DNA of 64,000 nt from positions 52,457-116,456 of the IMG/VR virus record IMGVR_UViG_3300028581_002181; one strand, written 5' to 3'. How positions within the stretch are numbered: position 1 is the first letter of the stretch; each line of letters starts with the position of its first letter. This document shows, one piece after another, positions 36,256-53,027 of this stretch. A program made the translations under genes and the position numbers. This stretch comes from a virus. The notes under the pieces are model-generated. The model was not told where the DNA came from and ran no database searches. It saw only the letters and a program-made list of their open reading frames with translations.

Positions 36256-37794
36256 TCATTTATTATGAAGTTTTGATATAAATTGGTAATATTCTTCAGT
36301 TTGATTGCTGATGCCGTCCGCCCAAATTTGTTTCTTTGTGAGGTAATCATGCAATTTATTTTGTAGGTCTTTGGGAGAATTTTTGCTCCAATTATGTAAA
36401 TTATCTAACCAAACACTGGCCAACTCTGCCCACATATAATCTGGAAATATGGTCAAAAAATTGTATGAACGCGATACTGTGTTTTTTTCGGAATTATATT
36501 TTTCCTTAAGCAGTTGTTTGTGATTCAATTCAATTCCTAAATCATACATGTCTTGCCAAAATTTATTTGTTTTTTTTGAACACAATGTATAATGCACACT
36601 GATAAAGTCTGCGATGTCATCCAAAGCATAACAAACTTTTTCATTGTAATCTGCCCAATCATTGTTGTTTTTTATGGCCATAGTGGCTGCAAATATCGTT
36701 GAAACTGAAATGAACAGTGCGTTGGCTTCCATGGGCTCTATAAAACCTGCTGCCATGCCCACAGCACAAACGTTTTTTATTGCTGGAGTTTTAAATCTTT
36801 TTGGTTCCCACTTGATCAGTCTTGGTTCTTTTAAATTTTTTTTATCTATAATTTTTAAAAATTCTTCTTTGGCTTGTGCATCTGTAAAATATTTGTCATT
36901 ATAGACCAATCCACAACCCATTCTATTCAATAAACCAATTTTAAATATCCAACCCATGGAGTGCCAGATGGATTGAGTGTGATTCTTACACTCTTGGTCA
37001 GCATCTGAATATTTCAAAGGACTTACCCAAGCACTGTTGGCAGGACAATGAGTGTATGCATGATAATCATTGGTTAATTTGCTGATCAATGTTCTGTGAA
37101 ATCCTGTGGCGTCTATCCAAATATCACTGCTGATGATTGCTCCTGATTGGAGTTCAACGCTGGCTATGCCTTGTTGATCACAATTTACTTTTGTGATTGT
37201 GTCTATGATTTCTTTTACACCACTGGGTTTGGCATGTTTTTCAATCAAATAAGGAGCCAGTTTTTCCGCATCAATGTGATAAGCATAGGAAAAATTTTCA
37301 CTGCCCAAATAACATCCATTGCTATCAAAAGGAGCTTTGTTTTTGTTCATGAATGAATACAAAGGCACAAATGAATCACTGTAATTTTGTACTTTTTTGT
37401 TATTAAATAAATCTATCCATACATCTGTTGCTCGCATGTCTGTAGGACCTATGGAAACAATGTCTTCTTTAGTGATAGGTTGATTATTAAAAATTTTTTC
37501 CAAAGGCTCATTATAGTTGAAAGCAAAATATACATCTTCTTTTTCATTTATCCAATCTTTAAAACAGTTGGCATATTTAAAAATACTTTGAGTGGCCAGC
37601 ATCATGTCTTTTTCATCCACACCTATTTCATTCAAAAATCCTTTCACATGAGGTGTAACACTTTCTCCCACTCCTATGGTAGGAATATGATCACTGTGTA
37701 GTAAAATTATTTGATCTGTGGGAAAATGTTTTTTTAAAAAACACGCTGCTAGAGCTCCAGCAGTGCCTGCACCTACCACAGTAATGGTTTTCAT
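36256..37794 (-). CDS. Tryptophan-halogenase-like flavoprotein
   Basis: 512 aa from ATG 37794 (a longer in-frame leader to 37866 lies inside the preceding gene). MKTITVVGAGTAGALAACFL is the FAD loop; HIPTIGVGESVTPHVKGFL and SIFKYANCFKDW supply the family G-E and the catalytic Lys equivalent to K79 of PrnA. The W-x-W-x-I-P motif is changed to GWIFKIGL, so regiochemistry may differ. Would need reduced FAD; no flavin reductase is seen nearby. Halogenates an indole or related ring in cellular homologues; phage substrate unknown. Confidence 0.85.
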   Translation of the reverse strand: MKTITVVGAGTAGALAACFLKKHFPTDQIILLHSDHIPTIGVGESVTPHVKGFLNEIGVDEKDMMLATQSIFKYANCFKDWINEKEDVYFAFNYNEPLEKIFNNQPITKEDIVSIGPTDMRATDVWIDLFNNKKVQNYSDSFVPLYSFMNKNKAPFDSNGCYLGSENFSYAYHIDAEKLAPYLIEKHAKPSGVKEIIDTITKVNCDQQGIASVELQSGAIISSDIWIDATGFHRTLISKLTNDYHAYTHCPANSAWVSPLKYSDADQECKNHTQSIWHSMGWIFKIGLLNRMGCGLVYNDKYFTDAQAKEEFLKIIDKKNLKEPRLIKWEPKRFKTPAIKNVCAVGMAAGFIEPMEANALFISVSTIFAATMAIKNNNDWADYNEKVCYALDDIADFISVHYTLCSKKTNKFWQDMYDLGIELNHKQLLKEKYNSEKNTVSRSYNFLTIFPDYMWAELASVWLDNLHNWSKNSPKDLQNKLHDYLTKKQIWADGISNQTEEYYQFISKLHNK

Positions 37795-37795
37795 A

Positions 37796-38440
37796 TTATT
37801 CTTTTTTGGATTCTTTGTAAAAGTATTCATCTGAATCACCAAACACCCATTTGGCATTCTGTTCACAGTGCCAATATTTGGTGCTCACTTTGAAATCTGG
37901 AGTTTTGAGTTTGCCAGGATTGGCACTGGCTTCGTGCCAGATCATTCTATTGTTGGGTTGGGCAAAGAATTGACCATTGTCCAATTGACCTATGTTGTGA
38001 CCCTTGTGTTCAGTGGGCACTTCTGATTCAGTCACATTCACAGTGTTGGGATCTGTGTGAGCACTGTCCACAGTGAACAAATAAACTCCTGACATCTTTT
38101 TACCATCTTTGAGTATCACATCCACTCTGCTGTATTGTAGGTATTGTTTCTCAATGATGGTGATGTGATAGCTGAAACCATCCCACAGTTGCAAATAATC
38201 CAAAGGCAATTGCTCTTCTGATTTGATATCTGTGCGCCAAGTGAATGCACTGATGGGCAGCTTGTCATACAGTGCACCATATTCTGGCAGATATGCTTCT
38301 ATGTAGAATGCTCTGCGTGGAATAGATTTCAGTGTGACCCAAGTGCAGGGCACAAATTCACCGTGACCTTTTTGAAAGTCATACAGATATTCTTTTTTGA
38401 TGTAGGCTTGGATGTAGGGAGTGTTCACCACGAAGTTCAT
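37796..38440 (-). CDS. Conserved T4-like marine phage protein
   Basis: 214 aa, function unknown. Beta-rich: FVPCTWVTLKSIPRRAFYIEAYL, YSRVDVILKDGKKMSGVYLFTVD and C-terminal STKYWHCEQNAKWVFGDSD. Ends 1 nt before the halogenase start, so it is read first in that pair. No signal or membrane segment. Possibly virion-related, by analogy with size and strand content only. Confidence 0.6.
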   Translation of the reverse strand: MNFVVNTPYIQAYIKKEYLYDFQKGHGEFVPCTWVTLKSIPRRAFYIEAYLPEYGALYDKLPISAFTWRTDIKSEEQLPLDYLQLWDGFSYHITIIEKQYLQYSRVDVILKDGKKMSGVYLFTVDSAHTDPNTVNVTESEVPTEHKGHNIGQLDNGQFFAQPNNRMIWHEASANPGKLKTPDFKVSTKYWHCEQNAKWVFGDSDEYFYKESKKE

Positions 38441-38476: not shown

Positions 38477-39085
38477 CTAAAATGGCTTTCCACTTTTTTG
38501 TAAAATAGAGGACTGTCCTGGGGGTGTAGTTTTTGGTGCTGCAGTAGCTGGGACTTTAGGGTCTTCAAATTCATTTGGTTTGATATTTAGAGATTTTAGC
38601 ACAGATGAGAATTGTGTGTTGAAATCTCCATGAGTGATGTTAGTCATTTTACGTAAAAAATCTTCGATGCTTGTGATTATAGTATTTTTGGCTGAGCCAT
38701 CTGATGGATTTTCCAATCTAGTTTTGATAGCTGCTGATAATTCTTTTTCAAAACCTGCGTCCTTGGGTTTACTCTGCATCATTGATCCCACAAACATATT
38801 TAGGTCGTCTTTGGTAACACCTATTTTGCTGTAATCTTTTACACCAGCGCCTTTGTTCATACTGCCCAATGCTCCACCCAACTTGCTGGCAAAACTGTCT
38901 TTGGCAGCATCTGTGTCTTTGGGAGCAGTCATAAATTTATTCACAGCAGTGTTGGCTGCACCCACAGCAGTTTTCACAGCACCACCTGCCTGTGCAAATT
39001 TATTCATCACTTTGCCCATAGTGCCTGGAGGTTTGGCTGCAGTAGGTTTGCCCAAAGATGGAGTGACCAATTCATTGATCTTCAT
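38477..39085 (-). CDS. Possible internal head protein, MKINEL leader
   Basis: 202 aa. Starts MKINELVTPSLGKPT, a variant of the MK-x-x-E-(I/L) leader found on about ten nearby genes but without a Glu at the expected cleavage site. Then an Ala/Gly/Lys-rich low-complexity part (KTAVGAANTAVNKFMTAPKD), a helical core and a Pro/Thr-rich tail. The first of the minus-strand tagged cluster in numbering (last in transcription). No enzymatic motif. Confidence 0.55.
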   Translation of the reverse strand: MKINELVTPSLGKPTAAKPPGTMGKVMNKFAQAGGAVKTAVGAANTAVNKFMTAPKDTDAAKDSFASKLGGALGSMNKGAGVKDYSKIGVTKDDLNMFVGSMMQSKPKDAGFEKELSAAIKTRLENPSDGSAKNTIITSIEDFLRKMTNITHGDFNTQFSSVLKSLNIKPNEFEDPKVPATAAPKTTPPGQSSILQKSGKPF

Positions 39086-39090
39086 GGTGA

Positions 39091-39477
39091 TTACTTTTTG
39101 TCTTGGTTGAATTTTTTTTCGTTAACTTTTTTGTCTAGAATTTTGAACAACACTTCTTCGTAGGTTTCCATCTTGCCATCACTGGGCTTGACCACTTGTT
39201 GTACAGGTATACTGGTTTCCAGTTCGGCTTGATTGAATTTTTCATCGTAGTCCATATAATGATACACAGAACTGATGTAATCAGCGGCTTTGGTGATCTT
39301 TGCTTGAACCCAACCTTCCAAACCTTCTGCTTCAGACACGTTCTTTAACAGTTCATGCAGTTTGATGCTGTACTTGGCCAACTTGTAAAGATCAGCACGT
39401 GCCATCTGCACTTCGTGATCCATCTCTGCTTTGTGAGCTGCGTCTGCCAATCCTTCTTTGATATCTTTGTGTTTCAT
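39091..39477 (-). CDS. Tagged small helical protein (IKE-G leader)
   Basis: 128 aa. N-terminus MKHKDIKE-GLADAAHK fits a T4 gp21 protease site (I-x-E before Gly). The rest is a long helix array (VQMARADLYKLAKYSIKLHEL, AADYISSVYHYMDYDEKF) conserved in marine T4-like phages. A GATAAATA octamer lies 5 nt before the ATG with no Shine-Dalgarno. Likely a late, possibly capsid-packaged protein; inference from leader and promoter. Confidence 0.6.
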   Translation of the reverse strand: MKHKDIKEGLADAAHKAEMDHEVQMARADLYKLAKYSIKLHELLKNVSEAEGLEGWVQAKITKAADYISSVYHYMDYDEKFNQAELETSIPVQQVVKPSDGKMETYEEVLFKILDKKVNEKKFNQDKK

Positions 39478-39482
39478 ATGTG

Positions 39483-39490
39483 TATTTATC
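39483..39490 (-). promoter_or_regulatory. Late promoter octamer GATAAATA, 5 nt before ATG
   Basis: Minus-strand octamer ending 5 nt before the 128 aa gene; its TAA also serves as the stop codon of the 66 aa gene upstream. Predicted transcript would begin at or within a base or two of the ATG. Confidence 0.5.
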
Positions 39491-39686
39491 TCTTCATTGG
39501 GCCACCGAATATGCTGACGTCCTTCATGTCCAGTGCGTTATCAGTGGGTTTTTGTTTTTTGGGCTTGGCTTTGGCTGATTTGTAGGCATAAGGATTGGTC
39601 ACATGGGGGTTTGCTATGCTGGCAATGTTGCCTGCTGATGTGGATCCCACAGATGCCACTTCTCTTATGATGTCTCTAATTTTCAT
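39486..39686 (-). CDS. Tagged small basic protein (MKIRDIIRE leader)
   Basis: 66 aa. MKIRDIIRE-VASVG is the clearest form of the leader, with a predicted gp21-like cut after E9. The remaining 57 residues are Lys/Pro-rich (YKSAKAKPKKQKP) with an SIFGGPMKR end, probably disordered and DNA-binding-like. CATAAATA lies 15 nt before the ATG, with AAGGGC between. Confidence 0.6.
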   Translation of the reverse strand: MKIRDIIREVASVGSTSAGNIASIANPHVTNPYAYKSAKAKPKKQKPTDNALDMKDVSIFGGPMKR

Positions 39687-39701
39687 CGTTTGCCCTTGCT
39701 G

Positions 39702-39709
39702 TATTTATG
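39702..39709 (-). promoter_or_regulatory. Late promoter octamer CATAAATA
   Basis: 15 nt before the 66 aa tagged gene, leaving a short leader with an AAGGGC ribosome site. Confidence 0.5.
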
Positions 39710-39721
39710 TGGTGTTTGTGA

Positions 39722-39916
39722 TTATTTGCTAACTTTGGGCACAGTGATGCCCAGCTTTTTCACTGCTTTGCCGCCTTTGTACAGCCTAGCGTGTGGCACT
39801 TTTAAATTCTTTGGACCATATATGTCGCCCACTTTGAATGTGTAACTCAAGCGTGCAGGATCCAATCCATAGTGGTAGTCTGCCCATGCTTCATGCACTA
39901 TATCACGTATCTTCAT
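39722..39916 (-). CDS. Tagged small basic protein (MKIRDIVHE leader)
   Basis: 64 aa. MKIRDIVHE-AWADYHYG shares its first six residues with the 66 aa neighbour, then diverges completely. Predicted cut after E9 before Ala, the preferred T4 context. Body is basic (KNLKVPHARLYKGGKAVKKLG). Function unknown; likely an internal virion protein. Confidence 0.6.
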   Translation of the reverse strand: MKIRDIVHEAWADYHYGLDPARLSYTFKVGDIYGPKNLKVPHARLYKGGKAVKKLGITVPKVSK

Positions 39917-40257
39917 TTTTTTGTCTTCACGTTTTTAGCAGCACCACGACGTTCCGGATTGGGATCTTCACGTCTTTTTCTTGAGGCTGCTGATGCACGC
40001 CCTTTCTTGCCCAATGCATGTGCTTTGGCTTGCGGCAAACATTTGGGCTTGCCTTCTTTGCTGCTGCCTCTGGCACAATCACCTTTGATTTTGCCGTCTG
40101 GACCAAATCTCACCCACTTCTGTTTAAACCATTTTTTTAAATCTTCTTCCATCTCCTTCACGGGCACACAGTTGGGCACCATTCTGTTGCCTTTGGGTTT
40201 CATGCCGCGCTGTACATAACCTTGCCAGCACTTCTCTAAAATCTCTCGGTATTTCAT
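39913..40257 (-). CDS. Tagged basic protein with KPKCLP motif
   Basis: 114 aa from ATG 40257; the longer frame to 40332 runs through the 53 aa gene out of frame and is rejected. MKYREILE-KCWQG is the leader variant. The body has LKKWFKQKWVRFGPDGKIKGDC and EGKPKCLPQAKAHALGKKGRASAA, a Cys/Lys/Arg-rich module known from many phage proteins of unknown role. Very basic C-terminus (RKRREDPNPERR) suggests nucleic-acid binding. Confidence 0.6.
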   Translation of the reverse strand: MKYREILEKCWQGYVQRGMKPKGNRMVPNCVPVKEMEEDLKKWFKQKWVRFGPDGKIKGDCARGSSKEGKPKCLPQAKAHALGKKGRASAASRKRREDPNPERRGAAKNVKTKK

Positions 40258-40258
40258 T

Positions 40259-40420
40259 CTATTTGCTCTTGTTGCCCCAGTTGGCTGCACCTTTTTTACG
40301 ACACTGAACCAACGCACCTGATGCATAGGCACTGGGCCAAACTTTATATCTGGATTTGACCTTGCGATAGCAGGCGTCCTGTTTTTCTTGCAGACCTTGA
40401 GTGATTTCTTTGAGCTTCAT
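40259..40420 (-). CDS. Tagged small protein, 53 aa
   Basis: 53 aa: begins MKLKEITQGLQEKQD and ends GALVQCRKKGAANWGNKSK. The Cys-containing body (ACYRKVKSRYKVWPSAYAS) is a compact basic module that resembles part of the following protein. Stop is 1 nt from the ATG of the 114 aa gene. AATAAATA octamer 18 nt upstream, with a small hairpin between. Confidence 0.6.
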   Translation of the reverse strand: MKLKEITQGLQEKQDACYRKVKSRYKVWPSAYASGALVQCRKKGAANWGNKSK

Positions 40421-40422
40421 AA

Positions 40423-40437
40423 TAGTGTTTTACACTA
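40423..40437. repeat. Inverted repeat TAGTGT-TTT-ACACTA
   Basis: 6 bp perfect stem in the 17 nt between a late octamer and the 53 aa gene start. Would form at the extreme 5' end of the transcript and could affect initiation or stability. Confidence 0.35.
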
Positions 40438-40893
40438 CTATTTATTGCGTTTACGACCTTGACGCATGTTTATCTGCCAGTGTGCCAGTTGCTTTTTGCG
40501 TGCAGATGCTGTTTTAGAACTGCGTATCCGTTTCAATTGTGTGATGGTAGCGCCTTTGGGTATGCCTGCTCGTTTGGAATCACCAGGTCTACCTGGTCCT
40601 CGGCCATCCGCAAAGTTCTCATCCACGTTGCCCAATGGACTGGCAATGGGATCACGCATTTGAGCATATCTGTTCATGTCCAACACAATTTGTGCTTTGA
40701 GACTCACATGTGGAATGTCTGTTTTGATCAGCAGTTTTAAATCTTCATCCGACAAAGATTTCAAATGTTGACGCAATGCCTGACCTTTCACAGCTGGCAA
40801 AGCCTTGTCTTTGAATGGTGTGTATTGAGTTCGTAGATCATCTATGTCAGATTGTTTAAGTTTATGCTTAAACACTATTTCACGAATCTTCAT
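40438..40893 (-). CDS. Tagged protein with basic C-terminal module
   Basis: 151 aa. MKIREIVFKHKLKQ leader without a cleavage Glu. Middle is helical (SDEDLKLLIKTDIPHVSLKAQ). The last 55 residues, GRGPGRPGDSKRAGIPKG then SSKTASARKKQLAHWQINMRQGR, form a basic module recurring in T4-like marine phage proteins. Stop overlaps the octamer before the 53 aa gene. Role unknown; DNA-binding is plausible. Confidence 0.6.
   Translation of the reverse strand: MKIREIVFKHKLKQSDIDDLRTQYTPFKDKALPAVKGQALRQHLKSLSDEDLKLLIKTDIPHVSLKAQIVLDMNRYAQMRDPIASPLGNVDENFADGRGPGRPGDSKRAGIPKGATITQLKRIRSSKTASARKKQLAHWQINMRQGRKRNK
40439..40446 (-). promoter_or_regulatory. Late promoter octamer AATAAATA
   Basis: 18 nt before the 53 aa tagged gene; contains the last Lys codon and TAG stop region of the 151 aa gene. 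Confidence 0.4.
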
Positions 40894-40897
40894 TGAA

Positions 40898-41629
40898 TTA
40901 CACCAGTTTTAATTTGCGAGCCTGTCTGCGGATCTCACCTGGTTTAACATCTCGGGTAGTGTTCTGTTTGGTAATAATTCCCACACCTGCTGCATCTTCC
41001 ACAGGCACTTTTTCTTTTTGTTTTTGTTTATGATTGTATTGTTCCAATGCTTGTGACACCTTGCTGAGTGGATGCTTGTTGGCTTGATACAGTATGCCAT
41101 AGCCACCTTTGCTCTGCCATTTGTCTATGTTGATGGGACGATCGTCTATTAAAATATTTTTAACACCGTTTTTGACAGCATAGGTTTCTTTCACACCAGT
41201 CACAATGATAACATCTGGCTTCACTATGTTTTTGCCAATCCATACTTTTTTGTAGTAACCACTGTTTTCTGTGTCACCTCTCAAAGGCGAAGTGAGTATG
41301 CTGTACTGCCCACCTGTGAATTTCTTGATCATCTCGATCAATGTGTCTGCACTGCTGAACTTGGGTAGATGTGCAAAAAAATCTGTGCCTGCTATTCTGT
41401 CAATCACATCTTGGCGTAGGTCTTTGGTCTTGTCAGATGTCAGTTGTTTCCAGTGATCCACACCGTACAAACGTTCTACTCCACCAAAGAAATCTGCAAT
41501 CACGCCATCCATATCCAAATACACAATGGGTTTGACATTAGATTGTTCTGTCATGTGTTTATTATACAACTGTTTGTTGTATAAATCAACAGATATTTTT
41601 TGGTTAGATAGTATTTCGGTAATCTTCAT
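40898..41629 (-). CDS. HAD-family nucleotidase-like protein with MKITEI leader
   Basis: 243 aa. After a leader MKITEILSNQK and a 25-residue spacer, VYLDMDGVIADFFGGVERLYG is HAD motif I (D-x-D), ILTSPLRGD motif II, KNILIDDRPINIDKW motif IV. Spacing and cap match 5'(3')-deoxyribonucleotidases. Lys/Glu-rich tail ends with RRQARKLKLV. If packaged in the capsid it could act on nucleotides on entry; this is inference. ATG overlaps the previous stop. Confidence 0.75.
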   Translation of the reverse strand: MKITEILSNQKISVDLYNKQLYNKHMTEQSNVKPIVYLDMDGVIADFFGGVERLYGVDHWKQLTSDKTKDLRQDVIDRIAGTDFFAHLPKFSSADTLIEMIKKFTGGQYSILTSPLRGDTENSGYYKKVWIGKNIVKPDVIIVTGVKETYAVKNGVKNILIDDRPINIDKWQSKGGYGILYQANKHPLSKVSQALEQYNHKQKQKEKVPVEDAAGVGIITKQNTTRDVKPGEIRRQARKLKLV

Positions 41630-41790
41630 TAGTCTTTTTCACAATTGGCACAGTGACAGCGTCTGCACACTTCAATCACCCATTCTCGTGTCTTTTTGTC
41701 GCCAATATGTTCGCTTTCTTTTCTTTTCAAAGTTTTTTTGCAATGACTATCATTGCCACAATTGATGCAATAGGGTTTTTCCTTAGCCAT
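41629..41790 (-). CDS. Small zinc-ribbon-like protein, 53 aa
   Basis: 53 aa from ATG 41790; a longer frame to 41907 overlaps the 269 aa gene and is less likely. PYCINCGNDSHC and EVCRRCHCANCE give seven Cys and one His in two clusters, spaced as a zinc ribbon. 4 nt after the stop of the 269 aa gene. Possible RNA polymerase or nucleic-acid partner; role unknown. Confidence 0.6.
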   Translation of the reverse strand: MAKEKPYCINCGNDSHCKKTLKRKESEHIGDKKTREWVIEVCRRCHCANCEKD

Positions 41791-41794
41791 AAAT

Positions 41795-42604
41795 TTAAGA
41801 TCTGTCTTGTTTGGGACTTTTTCTTTGTTTGAATTTTTTATCAGTGGAACACCAATATCTACCATAGCTTTCATTGGATTCAGCCTGCACATATCCTTTT
41901 TTTTCATAGTCCGGCCAAGACTTTTGTGGAATCTTAATTATTCCTTGTTTGTCGTTAGGATTAATCACCATGATCAATTCATTATCACTGTTGTAATCTT
42001 TAACAGGTTGAACAATTTTTTTTGCAATTTTATCTTTGAAACTTAAATTCTCTTTTTTGTAACCTGCGGGCATGAACTTGGCATATCTGTCTTGCATGTT
42101 TTTCACTGTGTTTAAATCTCTGCCTGAATCCAAACTCAATCTAGCCACTTCGATGTCTTGTTTGATATTCTGTATCAACTGGGCATCACCTTTTTGATTG
42201 GCCATATCCAACGCTTTGTTCATGGCTTGTATCACTGGCACATTATTATTGATAGCATTATTAATGGAACCTATGCCTGCCACACTGCCCACAATAATTC
42301 CAGCCACAGCCATTTTTTGTAACCAATCTTTTAATCCTTCGTCTAATTCTGTGCTTTCAAAATGTCGGGAGTAAGGACGACCTTTGGCAAATTCTCTACC
42401 ATAGCTGAACTCCTGTCTCTGTGCTAATTCTTTGGCTGAAAAACCTGGACGTATAACTCCTCCAGCATGTTGTTTGGCAAAATCTTCTCTGTTCTTGAAG
42501 AATGCTCGGATTTCATCTGGGGTCATCATGTCCAACTTGGCTTTGGTCTTGGCCATGCTGCTGGGCAATCTAGAACCTTCTGATATGATGTGTCTTAGCT
42601 TCAT
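41795..42604 (-). CDS. Tagged protein with hydrophobic segment (MKLRHIISE leader)
   Basis: 269 aa. MKLRHIISE-GSRLPSS fits a gp21 cut after E9 before Gly. Residues about 90-120 (WLQKMAVAGIIVGSVAGIGSINNAI) form one hydrophobic helix, followed by helices with a repeated Asn/Gln pattern. C-terminus LIMVINPNDKQGIIKIPQKSWP then YGRYWCSTDKKF is beta-like. Could be an injected membrane-active internal protein, which is speculative. Confidence 0.6.
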   Translation of the reverse strand: MKLRHIISEGSRLPSSMAKTKAKLDMMTPDEIRAFFKNREDFAKQHAGGVIRPGFSAKELAQRQEFSYGREFAKGRPYSRHFESTELDEGLKDWLQKMAVAGIIVGSVAGIGSINNAINNNVPVIQAMNKALDMANQKGDAQLIQNIKQDIEVARLSLDSGRDLNTVKNMQDRYAKFMPAGYKKENLSFKDKIAKKIVQPVKDYNSDNELIMVINPNDKQGIIKIPQKSWPDYEKKGYVQAESNESYGRYWCSTDKKFKQRKSPKQDRS

Positions 42605-42819
42605 TTCTTTCTTCCTCTGAATTTATTCTGCAATGACCCAGTCATGTAAGGCAGACTGAACCACAATTTGAACCAATCTGGATCGCCTGGTTTTAGGCCT
42701 AATTCTTTTTCTTTGTCCTTCAAAGCCTGTGCTGTGTGACTGATATTTTCCACAGACGGCATAGTATTGCTGTAAGTGTCTATGCCTGCCAGTTTTTTCA
42801 ATTTATCAATCTCGTTCAT
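42601..42819 (-). CDS. Small phage protein with LKKLAGI leader
   Basis: 72 aa. Begins MNEIDKLKKLAGIDTY, a second leader type (E-I/L-x-x-L/M-x-x-LAGI) that recurs at the start of many marine T4-like phage proteins. Body LGLKPGDPDWFKLWFSLPYM is conserved; C-terminal basic FRGRKK. CATAAATA lies 4 nt before the ATG, with no Shine-Dalgarno. 4 nt overlap with the 269 aa gene. Confidence 0.6.
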   Translation of the reverse strand: MNEIDKLKKLAGIDTYSNTMPSVENISHTAQALKDKEKELGLKPGDPDWFKLWFSLPYMTGSLQNKFRGRKK

Positions 42820-42823
42820 ATGA

Positions 42824-42831
42824 TATTTATG
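42824..42831 (-). promoter_or_regulatory. Late promoter octamer CATAAATA, 4 nt before ATG
   Basis: Its TAA is the stop of the nucleotidyltransferase gene. Predicted transcript start falls on or just inside the ATG of the 72 aa gene. Confidence 0.5.
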
Positions 42832-43393
42832 CTGGTTGTTTTAAATTTTGACGTATTTTTTGATATATCTCTGTGGCTGTTTTTTCATCTGCAGGAATAG
42901 TGGTTAAAAAACTACGTTTAGCACCTTGCACAGCATACTCTCTAGCTCTGCTGGCACTCACACCTGCTGCGCCTTCTGCATCTGGATCTCTCATTCCAGC
43001 ATTCACTGTTCTTATGCTGTTGAATTGGTAGTCTTTGCCATTGTATTTGTTCAGTAATTCATCAAATTGTTGCACTCTGTCTGATCCCGCCACATATATG
43101 ATGTCTTGATAGCCCATGCTTTCTAATTTTTTCATTGCATCAATAATGGTCTTTACTCCAGCATCTCCCACTGTGACTGTGGGGAACATTTTTTGAGCAT
43201 ACAGTACTTTGTCCGCAAAACTGAGAGGATTTGATTTGGCATCTTGAGTGTGTGTTAAAAATAAAAAGTGATCGCCTGGTTGAGCAGAGATGGCGTCTAT
43301 TAATTTTTTATGACCAGTGGTGGGTGGATTCATTCTGCCGTAAGCAAATGCGGCAATTTTAGGCGCTGGCTGACTTATTTCTACGAGTCTCAT
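42827..43393 (-). CDS. HxGH-type nucleotidyltransferase
   Basis: 188 aa. Leader MRLVEISQPAPK, then AAFAYGRMNPPTTGHKKLIDAI, which is the nucleotidyltransferase T/HxGH motif (here TTGH), and GVSASRAREYAVQG, the ISSTxxR-like phosphate motif. Closest in form to NMN adenylyltransferase/pantetheine-type or cytidylyltransferase-like enzymes. Would join a nucleotide to NMN, a phosphosugar or similar. Overlaps its upstream gene by 4 nt. Confidence 0.8.
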   Translation of the reverse strand: MRLVEISQPAPKIAAFAYGRMNPPTTGHKKLIDAISAQPGDHFLFLTHTQDAKSNPLSFADKVLYAQKMFPTVTVGDAGVKTIIDAMKKLESMGYQDIIYVAGSDRVQQFDELLNKYNGKDYQFNSIRTVNAGMRDPDAEGAAGVSASRAREYAVQGAKRSFLTTIPADEKTATEIYQKIRQNLKQPA

Positions 43394-43722
43394 TGTGCAT
43401 TCTTCACTGGATGTTTGGACAGTCCTTGCACGATCTTGTTGGTGAGGGTCACTCTGTCCTCTGAATTAATGATCTTTTCTGACTTGCCGTTGATTTTAAA
43501 TTTTTCAAAGTATTCGTTGATTGCTTTATCCACACATCCACCCCAAGTTTCCATTGGATTTTTTTCCATCATTTCTTTTTGATTGTCACTGTATCGTTTG
43601 GCCACTGGAAAGAAATTTTTTCTAAAAAACTCACTGTCGTTCAGCATGTACTGATAGATATCTTCTAAAATATCATATCCAATATTATCTCTGGTTATGG
43701 CTGTGAATTCTTTGGCTTTCAT
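43390..43722 (-). CDS. Small helical protein, MKAKEF leader
   Basis: 110 aa. MKAKEFTAITRDN resembles the cluster leader. Mostly helical and charged (YDILEDIYQYMLNDSEFFRKNFF), with DKAINEYFEKFKIN. No domain recognised. 2 nt gap to the 70 aa gene upstream. Confidence 0.55.
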   Translation of the reverse strand: MKAKEFTAITRDNIGYDILEDIYQYMLNDSEFFRKNFFPVAKRYSDNQKEMMEKNPMETWGGCVDKAINEYFEKFKINGKSEKIINSEDRVTLTNKIVQGLSKHPVKNAQ

Positions 43723-43724
43723 TG

Positions 43725-43937
43725 CTATCTTTCCTGTGCTGGTTCAATTGTTGGTTGTGTCTTCAACCATGCTTGACGATCTTTTTCTGCTTCTTCTTCG
43801 GAAATATATGGATCTTTGCCATCATAGATGTCCTGTAACTTTTGTCCTATCCAATCGAACACTTCTTGATCTTCTTTGGACACAGTTTTTCTATGCGTTT
43901 TATAATCTGTGGCTTTTACCATTTGCGACAACTCCAA
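43725..43937 (-). CDS. Small helical protein
   Basis: 70 aa. MELSQMVKATDYKTHRKT then a helix DQEVFDWIGQKLQDIYDGKD and EEEAEKDRQAWLK. Acidic C-terminal half. Overlaps the C-terminus of the 195 aa gene by 22 nt in another frame. Function unknown. Confidence 0.5.
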   Translation of the reverse strand: MELSQMVKATDYKTHRKTVSKEDQEVFDWIGQKLQDIYDGKDPYISEEEAEKDRQAWLKTQPTIEPAQER

Positions 43938-44503
43938 TATCTTGCTTTGGTTCTTGGACCTGGATTAGCACAATTGTGTCTGGCTCTAAAACTTCTGCGT
44001 CTGGCTGGATTGGATTTTTTAATCCTCATATTAGGATCACCAAAATTCACTTTTACTATGTTGCCAGTGGGTTTACGCACATACACTTTGAATTTTTTCA
44101 CATCACCTCTCATGGGTTTGCCCAAAGGCACTTTGCGTCCTCTGTATTCTGCTTCATCCAATGCATCATCTTCGTTGAACCACATCACATCATATGCACT
44201 GTGAAAGTCATCACCTTCATAGGTCTCTTCATCCAAGTTGTCGTCTGTGCTGACTTCAATATCAAATTCTTCCAAACCCATTTCTTTCAACTGTTCATTG
44301 AGGCTTTCGGCCAATTCATCAGATTCTGTTTCATCCAATGCTCTGTGCAGTTCCACACGCAGCACTTGATTGCCTTGTTCATCCTCAAATATATGATAGT
44401 TGGTCTGATCTTCAAACAGTCCTATGGCGCTTTCGCTCAATGCCACATCCACCAAGGATTCTGCATTAATATTCTTACCTATGATACTAAAAAAATGTTG
44501 CAT
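43916..44503 (-). CDS. Conserved phage protein with RRRSFRARHNC module
   Basis: 195 aa. N-terminal half is acidic (SDELAESLNEQLKEMGLEEF, DDNLDEETYEGDD). The last 60 residues, VKVNFGDPNMRIKKSNPARR then SFRARHNCANPGPRTKARYW, are a basic, strongly conserved phage module ending SCRKW. Such a module also appears as an isolated tail in other phage proteins. Role unknown; two Cys could bind a metal. Confidence 0.65.
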   Translation of the reverse strand: MQHFFSIIGKNINAESLVDVALSESAIGLFEDQTNYHIFEDEQGNQVLRVELHRALDETESDELAESLNEQLKEMGLEEFDIEVSTDDNLDEETYEGDDFHSAYDVMWFNEDDALDEAEYRGRKVPLGKPMRGDVKKFKVYVRKPTGNIVKVNFGDPNMRIKKSNPARRRSFRARHNCANPGPRTKARYWSCRKW

Positions 44504-52109: not shown

Positions 52110-53027
52110 TTATTCCATATGAGAAAGTTTGATCATGGTGGCTGAAAGATTAATTTCAGGATCAGAGATCAATGTATGATCCACCAGACCTTGTTTGATG
52201 ATTTGAATGGCTTTTTCTTGACGTGCTTCATTTCCAAACAGTGTGATATTATTATACATCCATTTAAAAATATCTTCCACTTCATCAGGTCTCACTTGAC
52301 TGCACACCAATTTCCTTGCTTCAGTGATCTTGCCCGCTTTGAACAACTCAACCATTTGTAACTTGTAATCTGATTCGCCCATGTCACTCTTTTCAGGCTT
52401 CAGCAACACGCCATTCTGTGCATTCATTTGCACCATGTTGATGCACTTTCTAAGATCTGGATATGTGGCTTTGACATAAGTGTCCAATGTTTCTAAATCT
52501 GGAGTTATGCCTTCTTGCATTAATATTTCAGCCACTCTGGCTGTGAATTCTGTTTGATCCACACGTTCAATGTGGAATCCTTGACATCTGCTGTGCAGTG
52601 CTGGGATCACTCTGTTGGGATAGTTGCAGGTCAGTATGAATCTTGATGTGGTATGATATTCTTCCATTACCCCACGCAGTGCTGCCTGTGCATTGGGTGA
52701 TAGATAGTCTGCCTCATCCAACAGCACCACTTTGAAATCACCAAATGGAATCATCTGTACAAAATTAACAATTTTGGCTCTCACATCATCCACAGAGTTG
52801 GTTCTGCTGGCATTGATTTCCAACACATCTAAATCATTCACTTGCAATTCATTCAGCAGTATTTTGGCCAATGTGGTTTTGCCTATGCCAGCATTGCCGC
52901 TGAACAACAAATGAGGAATGCTTTTGTCTTTTACCCAAGTTTGGATCTGTTTTTTTTGATGTTCATCTCTAAACACATATTGATCCAGTGTGCGAGGTCT
53001 ATACTTTTCTGTCCAAAGTTCTTTCAT
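52110..53027 (-). CDS. 44: Clamp loader large subunit gp44
   Basis: 305 aa. FSGNAGIGKTTLAKIL (Walker A), VVLLDEADYLSPNAQAALRG (Walker B), FILTCNYPNR (sensor 1) and SRCQGF (Arg finger SRC) are RFC/gp44 signatures. Loads the gp45 ring on primer junctions. The partner gp62 was not recognised in this window. Start overlaps the stop of the 55 aa gene (TGATG). Confidence 0.93.
   Translation of the reverse strand: MKELWTEKYRPRTLDQYVFRDEHQKKQIQTWVKDKSIPHLLFSGNAGIGKTTLAKILLNELQVNDLDVLEINASRTNSVDDVRAKIVNFVQMIPFGDFKVVLLDEADYLSPNAQAALRGVMEEYHTTSRFILTCNYPNRVIPALHSRCQGFHIERVDQTEFTARVAEILMQEGITPDLETLDTYVKATYPDLRKCINMVQMNAQNGVLLKPEKSDMGESDYKLQMVELFKAGKITEARKLVCSQVRPDEVEDIFKWMYNNITLFGNEARQEKAIQIIKQGLVDHTLISDPEINLSATMIKLSHME

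Follow-up and report, generated by a model that had tools for sequence, protein, structure and literature searches.

The window analyzed here, a 64,000-nucleotide stretch of a virus record from IMG/VR (IMGVR_UViG_3300028581_002181, positions 52,457 to 116,456), carries on its minus strand a cluster of eleven genes whose products share a short N-terminal leader but are otherwise unrelated. We consider it highly probable that these genes, from a marine phage of the T4 type, are expressed late and encode capsid cargo, and that their leaders are variants of the T4 capsid-targeting sequence (CTS). Capsid packaging, as proposed in the original prediction, is supported because about half of the leaders end in the consensus of the T4 prohead protease gp21, because relatives encode gp21 together with a capsid protein that has a matching junction, and because homologues have been detected in virions, leader-bearing proteins being enriched among the virion-detected ones in phage S-CREM2. 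The window makes up the right-hand portion of a 116,456-bp record (G000:C1:52457-116456), which appears to derive from a T4-like phage judging by genes named on inspection: gp46/47, baseplate and tail fiber genes, a clamp loader, and a ClpA-like protein.

Nine minus-strand start codons within 38477-43722 match MKxx(D/E)(I/L/F/V) (starts at 39085, 39477, 39686, 39916, 40257, 40420, 40893, 41629, and 43722). To these we add MKLRHIISE (start 42604), which departs from the strict motif in having His at position 5, and MRLVEISQ (start 43393), whose relatives begin with MRSKEFTE↓A, MLITEIVE↓A, and MFLKELFE↓A (arrows mark presumed cleavage sites). All ten N termini quoted in the original prediction are present on the minus strand; its rule for the start, MK-x-x-(E/D)-(I/L/F), holds for the nine strict matches but not for MKLRHIISE, and MRLVEISQ was absent from its list. 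Likewise, the genes form a single cluster as described there but are not all adjacent, four leader-free genes (41629-41907, 42601-42819, 43725-43937, and 43916-44503) being interspersed. Of the 15 cluster genes, 9 carry the strict leader, as against 0 of 115 in the rest of the record (Fisher p = 2e-10), and a six-frame scan of the whole record found three other motif-matching ATGs with an open reading frame (ORF) of at least 30 amino acids (aa), none of which begins a predicted gene. The MKYREILE start codon is internal to a longer ORF. The bodies behind the leaders are indeed unrelated, as had been claimed, and comprise a HAD nucleotidase-like and an NMNAT/cytidylyltransferase-like enzyme, small strongly basic proteins, and others of unassigned kind. 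Such sharing of a leader by otherwise unrelated proteins is a mark of a CTS.

In T4, gp21 cleaves after (L/I)xE, and in the CTS residues 4 and 7 serve targeting and residues 8 and 10 serve cutting (PMC9026906). The T4 precedent that had been invoked is sound: IPII and IPIII, used here as controls, start with MKTYQEFIAE, and gp24 starts with MAKINELLRE, while IPI is cut further in, from 95 aa to a mature form of 76 aa. Five of the eleven window leaders carry (I/V/L)xE at residue 8 or 9, in agreement with the five counted earlier, and a sixth (MKLKEITQGLQE) has its site at residue 12. Across about 160 related loci, the residues ahead of six conserved modules follow a pattern: P1 is Glu in 86-100% and P3 is I/L/V/F/M in 75-100% of distinct contexts, whereas no more than 0-38% have a hydrophobic residue at P2, P4, or P5; at random positions of the same ORFs the site motif occurs in 10-24%. 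The signature is seen behind leaders (MRFREIIE↓NFADG, MKISDLSE↓DGRIVKG) as well as deep within longer proteins, including two window proteins with an internal candidate site (GNVDE↓NFADG in 40438-40893 and DALDE↓AEYRGRKV in 43916-44503). In 52 distinct contexts of the NFADG module, Glu occupies P1 in 98% and a hydrophobic residue P3 in 75%, and a relative of the 151-aa window protein has this module directly behind its leader (MKIREVTE↓NFADG). The basic AEYRGRKV module has (ILVFM)xE upstream in 84 of 84 contexts, and the GLADxAxKAExDHEVQMAR body is preceded by (ILVFM)xE in 26 of 31 (P1 Glu, 0.97). The CWxGY module showed no strong signature immediately upstream (9 of 31 contexts), and the GRMNPPT anchor had a site within 8 residues in 0 of 57 contexts because the site sits further upstream. 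The leader ends at the gp21 consensus in six of the eleven window genes and in the statistics from relatives, which supports the view that the leader end would behave as a T4 gp21-type site, (I/L)xE↓.

A gp21 homologue, which was to be sought in the rest of this genome, was not found in the window's own 116-kb record, nor were capsid genes, but it is present in relatives. Synteny with a 156-kb relative (G002) places the end of the record at the point where the head genes are expected to start, and both G002 and a second cluster-bearing relative, G001, encode gp21 (PF03420 above the cut-off). The junction of the G002 major capsid protein (...RRYLAE↓SATAGATSAGNVATLN) matches that of a small cluster protein (MRLRELIE↓TASAGATSAGSVAAV), and four further large contigs with both capsid and mimic genes have the same junction. 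Three left-flank relatives with 65-77% identity in the linked protein (L296, L297, and L301) contain gp21 motifs and capsid arms. In L301, the closest, the capsid propeptide junction reads YINE↓SASVGSTSAGNVA, to be compared with IIRE↓VASVGSTSAGNIA in a 66-aa protein of the window, ASVGSTSAGN being identical in 10 of 10 positions between the two. Taken together, these five relatives encode the gp21 (S77) protease along with a capsid protein that shares the junction. The arm copy is kept by 37 distinct members of the 66-aa family, nearly always directly after Glu. After cleavage, the 66-aa protein would thus begin with a replica of the arm at the N terminus of the phage's own mature capsid protein, as judged from the arms of relatives. 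A tblastn search with this protein against cultured phages gave no match. The C terminus of the family holds a second strongly conserved motif, KPTDNALDMKG(T/V)S(I/L)FGG.

The leader search in related genomes that had been proposed found it kept on more than 12 families with unrelated bodies in the roughly 160 related loci, where genes and modules are swapped, fused, or split. Body families were defined with coverage limits, since plain single-linkage clustering joined families via fused modules. In phage Melnitz, homologues of three separate window genes are fused as domains behind one leader (MKKFSEIIE↓A). S-CREM2 ORF160 consists of an arm mimic, a Cys-containing basic module, and a 53-aa module with (I/L/V)xE-like junctions between them. 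The modules fused in these two proteins are separate genes in the window, each with its own leader. On the simplest reading, modules may enter the capsid either within a cleavable polyprotein or singly with a leader.

Mass spectrometry of CsCl-purified S-CREM2 virions listed 52 proteins (PMC10665884). Those detected and not annotated as structural include a SAM hydrolase (MKDFDSFLEE), ORF13 (MKDLHSFLTE), an APH-like kinase (MKRFDAFLTE), a cytidylyltransferase (MKNFSSFLTE↓A), a Cas9-like protein (LRFASFMAE↓A), and ORF136 (MQTFSMFFSE↓D). In the Cas9-like protein (ORF12, L199:7704-10313), the likely capsid-targeting leader lies about 25 residues in. Scored on annotated nonstructural ORFs 1-199, the T4-type leader motif is carried by 6 of the 26 proteins detected, against 1 of the 156 not detected (p = 3e-5, which is optimistic because the motif was chosen after the list had been seen). 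Over 50 aa, the window 53-aa protein shares 76% identity with the C terminus of the virion-detected ORF160, and the window cytidylyltransferase matches the virion-detected ORF154 (32%, 2e-23); a cytidylyltransferase of family T4-GC190 was also detected in S-SM1 virions (PMC3037559). The S-CREM2 authors already proposed that the virion carries enzymes of this sort, and we found no mention of the leader in the available part of their report (PMC10665884).

Several points weigh against our interpretation. The gp21 and capsid genes are taken from relatives and not from this record, and virion detection concerns homologues in S-CREM2 and S-SM1 and not this phage. Five window leaders lack (I/L)xE by residue 16. 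A missing site need not abolish targeting, since a T4 CTS with Asp at residue 10 still targets (PMC9026906); these leaders may accordingly direct proteins that are targeted and left uncut. The site rule alone is unspecific, with 21 matches in T4, many of them false, and as a cargo predictor the regular expression was rejected as too loose (p = 0.014 in S-CREM2). The motif behind the S-CREM2 enrichment was picked post hoc, a looser preset rule giving p = 0.014; the S-CREM2 leaders (MKxFxxFLxE) are closer to the T4 type than those of the window, and the authors caution that copurification is possible (PMC10665884). For this particular phage we infer packaging, cleavage of individual leaders, effector function, and a likely injection into the host.

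Of the alternatives, the one that survives best, though we judge it unlikely, is that the proteins belong to the prohead core (scaffold), help to give the head its shape, and for the most part are destroyed or lost as the head matures, and thus are not host cargo. In T4, gp21 cleaves gp22, gp67, and gp68, which are for the most part lost (PMC9026906), and the present modules are small and cut apart. However, homologues that include enzymes with recognizable domains were detected in mature S-CREM2 and S-SM1 virions, and the gene set varies among relatives, unlike that of essential core proteins. It is much less probable still that the leader directs proteins elsewhere (tail, membrane, or host) independently of the prohead: localization in this phage does rest on inference, but the cut site matches the capsid protein junction and leader proteins are enriched among those detected in S-CREM2 virions. 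Scarcely credible is a common start that merely reflects a copied DNA segment (a translation start or recombination tag) without protein function, for despite evident gene shuffling in the region, codon pairs for the same leader residue are identical in 65 of 146 cases against 75.6 expected from codon usage, so that the leader is conserved at the protein level and a shared DNA origin is rejected, while sequences upstream of the leader genes differ from one another and the Glu and P3 pattern recurs within proteins, far from start codons.

Within the capsid cargo interpretation, the arm mimic has counterparts in other phages. T4 gp61.1, annotated as hypothetical (L177:18966-19130), reads MKTFKEFIKE↓DMVAGDSGGNPENISIGTTSGAVVNKGP followed by a Lys-rich tail and is predicted to be cut after E10 (DMVAGDSGGNPENISIGTTSGAVVNK). 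It aligns to gp23 residues 68-93 with 14 of 26 residues identical (0 of 2000 shuffles as good), and the arm copy is in register with the gp23 E65 cut. We take T4 gp23 to be cut at the place that corresponds to the G002 capsid junction (FLTE↓AEIGG). A leader Glu followed by an in-register copy of the postcleavage capsid arm, again with capsid proteins from relatives, makes the 66-aa protein a gp61.1-like mimic. Sequences of the gp61.1 type occur in 1387 phage records, a few of them annotated as capsid-like, and the arm copy is present in five diverse Straboviridae. The protein is widespread in this family and in some members has a longer N-terminal portion fused ahead of it. Copies of the phage's own capsid arm, again in register with the cut, are also present in S-CREM2 ORF160 and in a Melnitz protein. 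Across four lineages, each mimic scores highest with its own capsid arm (69, 49, 95, and 37 versus 16-28 off-diagonal), the first of 24 permutations, a match that suggests repeated copying or coevolution. No arm mimic was found in the fetched part of S-PM2, and the window 66-aa protein did not match phrog_1823, the profile matched by gp61.1, and weakly matches another PHROG. More tentatively, and with slightly less than an even chance of being right in our estimate, T4-like phages, from Straboviridae to marine lineages resembling Kyanoviridae, pack a small leader protein that upon gp21 cleavage exposes a mimic of their own capsid arm and coevolves with that capsid protein. Cargo loading would then be modular, any module being turned into cargo once it acquires a 9-residue leader or an (I/L)xE junction within a longer protein. 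In such a system the mimic may form a lining of the inner shell, serve as an anchor for cargo, or set the timing of maturation.

Mechanistically, the leader MK-x-x-[DE]-[IL]-[IV]-x-E (MKTYQEFIAE in T4) would bind the scaffold core of the growing prohead, and a gp21-type protease would then cut after [ILV]xE, whether the site ends a leader or separates two modules of a longer protein. Cleavage would free small basic modules and the NMNAT/cytidylyltransferase-like and deoxyribonucleotidase-like enzymes, which would remain beside the DNA inside the head and probably accompany it into the host. For the basic modules, roles in offsetting the charge of the DNA or in the host are conceivable. Speculatively, the NMNAT-like enzyme and the nucleotidase, if packaged, could begin work on NAD and nucleotides immediately upon entry. 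The 66-aa mimic might line or dock at the inner shell where capsid arms dock, or serve as a decoy substrate for the protease.

Late expression of the cluster is plausible. The late octamers reported earlier are not borne out as such, the exact late promoter TATAAATA occurring 0 times in the cluster, but four ATAAATA heptamers lie on the coding strand 4-19 nucleotides (nt) ahead of the start codons at 39477, 39686, 40420, and 42819. In addition, (A/C)TAAATA ends just 4-6 nt before the ATG at 39477, 42819, 44867, 57838, and 58572 (minus strand), a spacing that would yield leaderless or nearly leaderless late mRNAs.

Table 1. Leader genes, internal-site proteins, and promoter-like elements of the cluster (window positions)
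Feature	Position	Strand	Remarks
66-aa capsid-arm mimic	39486..39686	minus	basic tail, net charge +7; conserved C-terminal motif KPTDNALDMK..SIFGG
Leader MKIRDIIRE↓ of 66-aa protein	39660..39686	minus	predicted body after cut, VASVGSTSAGNIASIANPH..., resembles mature N-terminal arm of capsid protein
Leader MKIRDIVHE↓ of 64-aa basic protein (39722-39916)	39890..39916	minus	relatives MKIREIVE↓S, MKIKEITE↓S
Leader MKHKDIKE↓ of 128-aa protein (39091-39477)	39454..39477	minus	body GLADxAxKAExDHEVQMAR
Leader MKYREILE↓ of 114-aa basic Cys protein (39913-40257)	40234..40257	minus	charge +21, 4 Cys; phrog_727 domain
Leader MKLKEITQGLQE↓ of 53-aa protein (40259-40420)	40385..40420	minus	phrog_727; weak PF19197 match below cut-off
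151-aa basic protein, leader MKIREIVF	40438..40893	minus	leader without site; internal candidate site GNVDE92↓NFADG
5'(3')-deoxyribonucleotidase-like HAD protein, leader MKITEILS	40898..41629	minus	no canonical site; phrog_2643, E = 5e-24
Leader MKLRHIISE↓ of 269-aa protein (41795-42604)	42578..42604	minus	further candidate site LDE↓GLKDW in body
NMNAT/cytidylyltransferase-like enzyme, leader MRLVEISQ	42827..43393	minus	phrog_3041, 6e-48; no site, though relatives have FTE↓A, IVE↓A, LFE↓A
110-aa protein, leader MKAKEFTA	43390..43722	minus	no site; 43 family members keep leader, only 4 have site
202-aa basic protein, leader MKINELVT	38477..39085	minus	same-place gene in L010 is MKINEIVSE↓APF
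195-aa protein without leader	43916..44503	minus	internal candidate site DALDE117↓AEYRGRKV ahead of basic module
Late-promoter-like ATAAATA	39483..39489	minus	5 nt ahead of start 39477
Late-promoter-like ATAAATA	39702..39708	minus	15 nt ahead of start 39686
Late-promoter-like ATAAATA	40439..40445	minus	about 18 nt ahead of start 40420
Late-promoter-like ATAAATA	42824..42830	minus	4 nt ahead of start 42819

The HAD nucleotidase label given earlier agrees with the phrog_2643 match and with a Pfam NT5C match just below the cut-off; against PDB sequences, this protein matched only mitochondrial 5'-nucleotidase (E = 0.002), and the cytidylyltransferase had no match there. A search of known defense-system families gave a single weak match, of 41795-42604 to Unk_05 (E = 0.0017). 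Directly downstream, the cluster adjoins two genes, 36256-37866, which by its look encodes a FAD-dependent tryptophan-halogenase-like protein, and 37796-38440, which matches phrog_3704, described as "ferredoxin." A long array of CxxxCxxC (radical-SAM-like) and glycosyltransferase-like genes, similarly named, adjoins the tail fibers in G002 (60-89 kb; L167-L169) and in the left part of the window's record.

The T4 CTS is a known kind of signal; to our knowledge, and as judged from the open-access literature, the gene set of the cluster and the capsid-arm mimic are new. The window leaders resemble those of T4 IPI, IPII, IPIII, and Alt in their shortness, Lys2, acidic and hydrophobic residues, and (I/L)xE cut motif, but are one or two residues shorter, with Ile at 6-7 instead of Tyr4/Phe7/Ile8. 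As with the T4 internal proteins, the bodies are unrelated and the genes lie outside the head operon; in contrast, the window has about ten such genes in a row, recognizable nucleotide enzymes, and modules that are also fused in longer proteins. With gp61.1 and its Straboviridae relatives, the 66-aa protein shares a CTS-like leader and an in-register arm copy (gp61.1 having a Lys-rich tail) but no detectable homology beyond the arm principle, each lineage copying its own capsid protein. Similar T4-type leaders, such as MKNFSSFLTE↓A and MKRFDAFLTE↓E, are found on the S-CREM2 virion proteins (SAM hydrolase, APH-like kinase, cytidylyltransferase, Cas9-like protein, ORF13, and ORF160), although S-CREM2 is a distant, cultured Synechococcus phage with a different cargo set. 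The ejection proteins of giant phages have a different cleavage motif and longer propeptides. In the giant phages phiKZ and SPN3US, too, many head proteins are cut after Glu by a gp21-related protease (PMC9026906).

In summary, a trick of T4 known chiefly from three internal proteins and Alt may turn into a readable code in uncultured marine T4-like phages, in which a leader or an internal (I/L)xE would mean that a protein is packaged. Small phage proteins without an assigned function (phrog_727, PF19197-like, phrog_7595, and others) would thereby receive a testable one, as virion cargo that is probably injected. Likewise, phage cytidylyltransferases and nucleotidases, easily mistaken for intracellular auxiliary metabolic genes, gain a testable role as cargo, and the prediction of a capsid-arm mimic, T4 gp61.1 included, is specific enough to be put to the test directly in T4.

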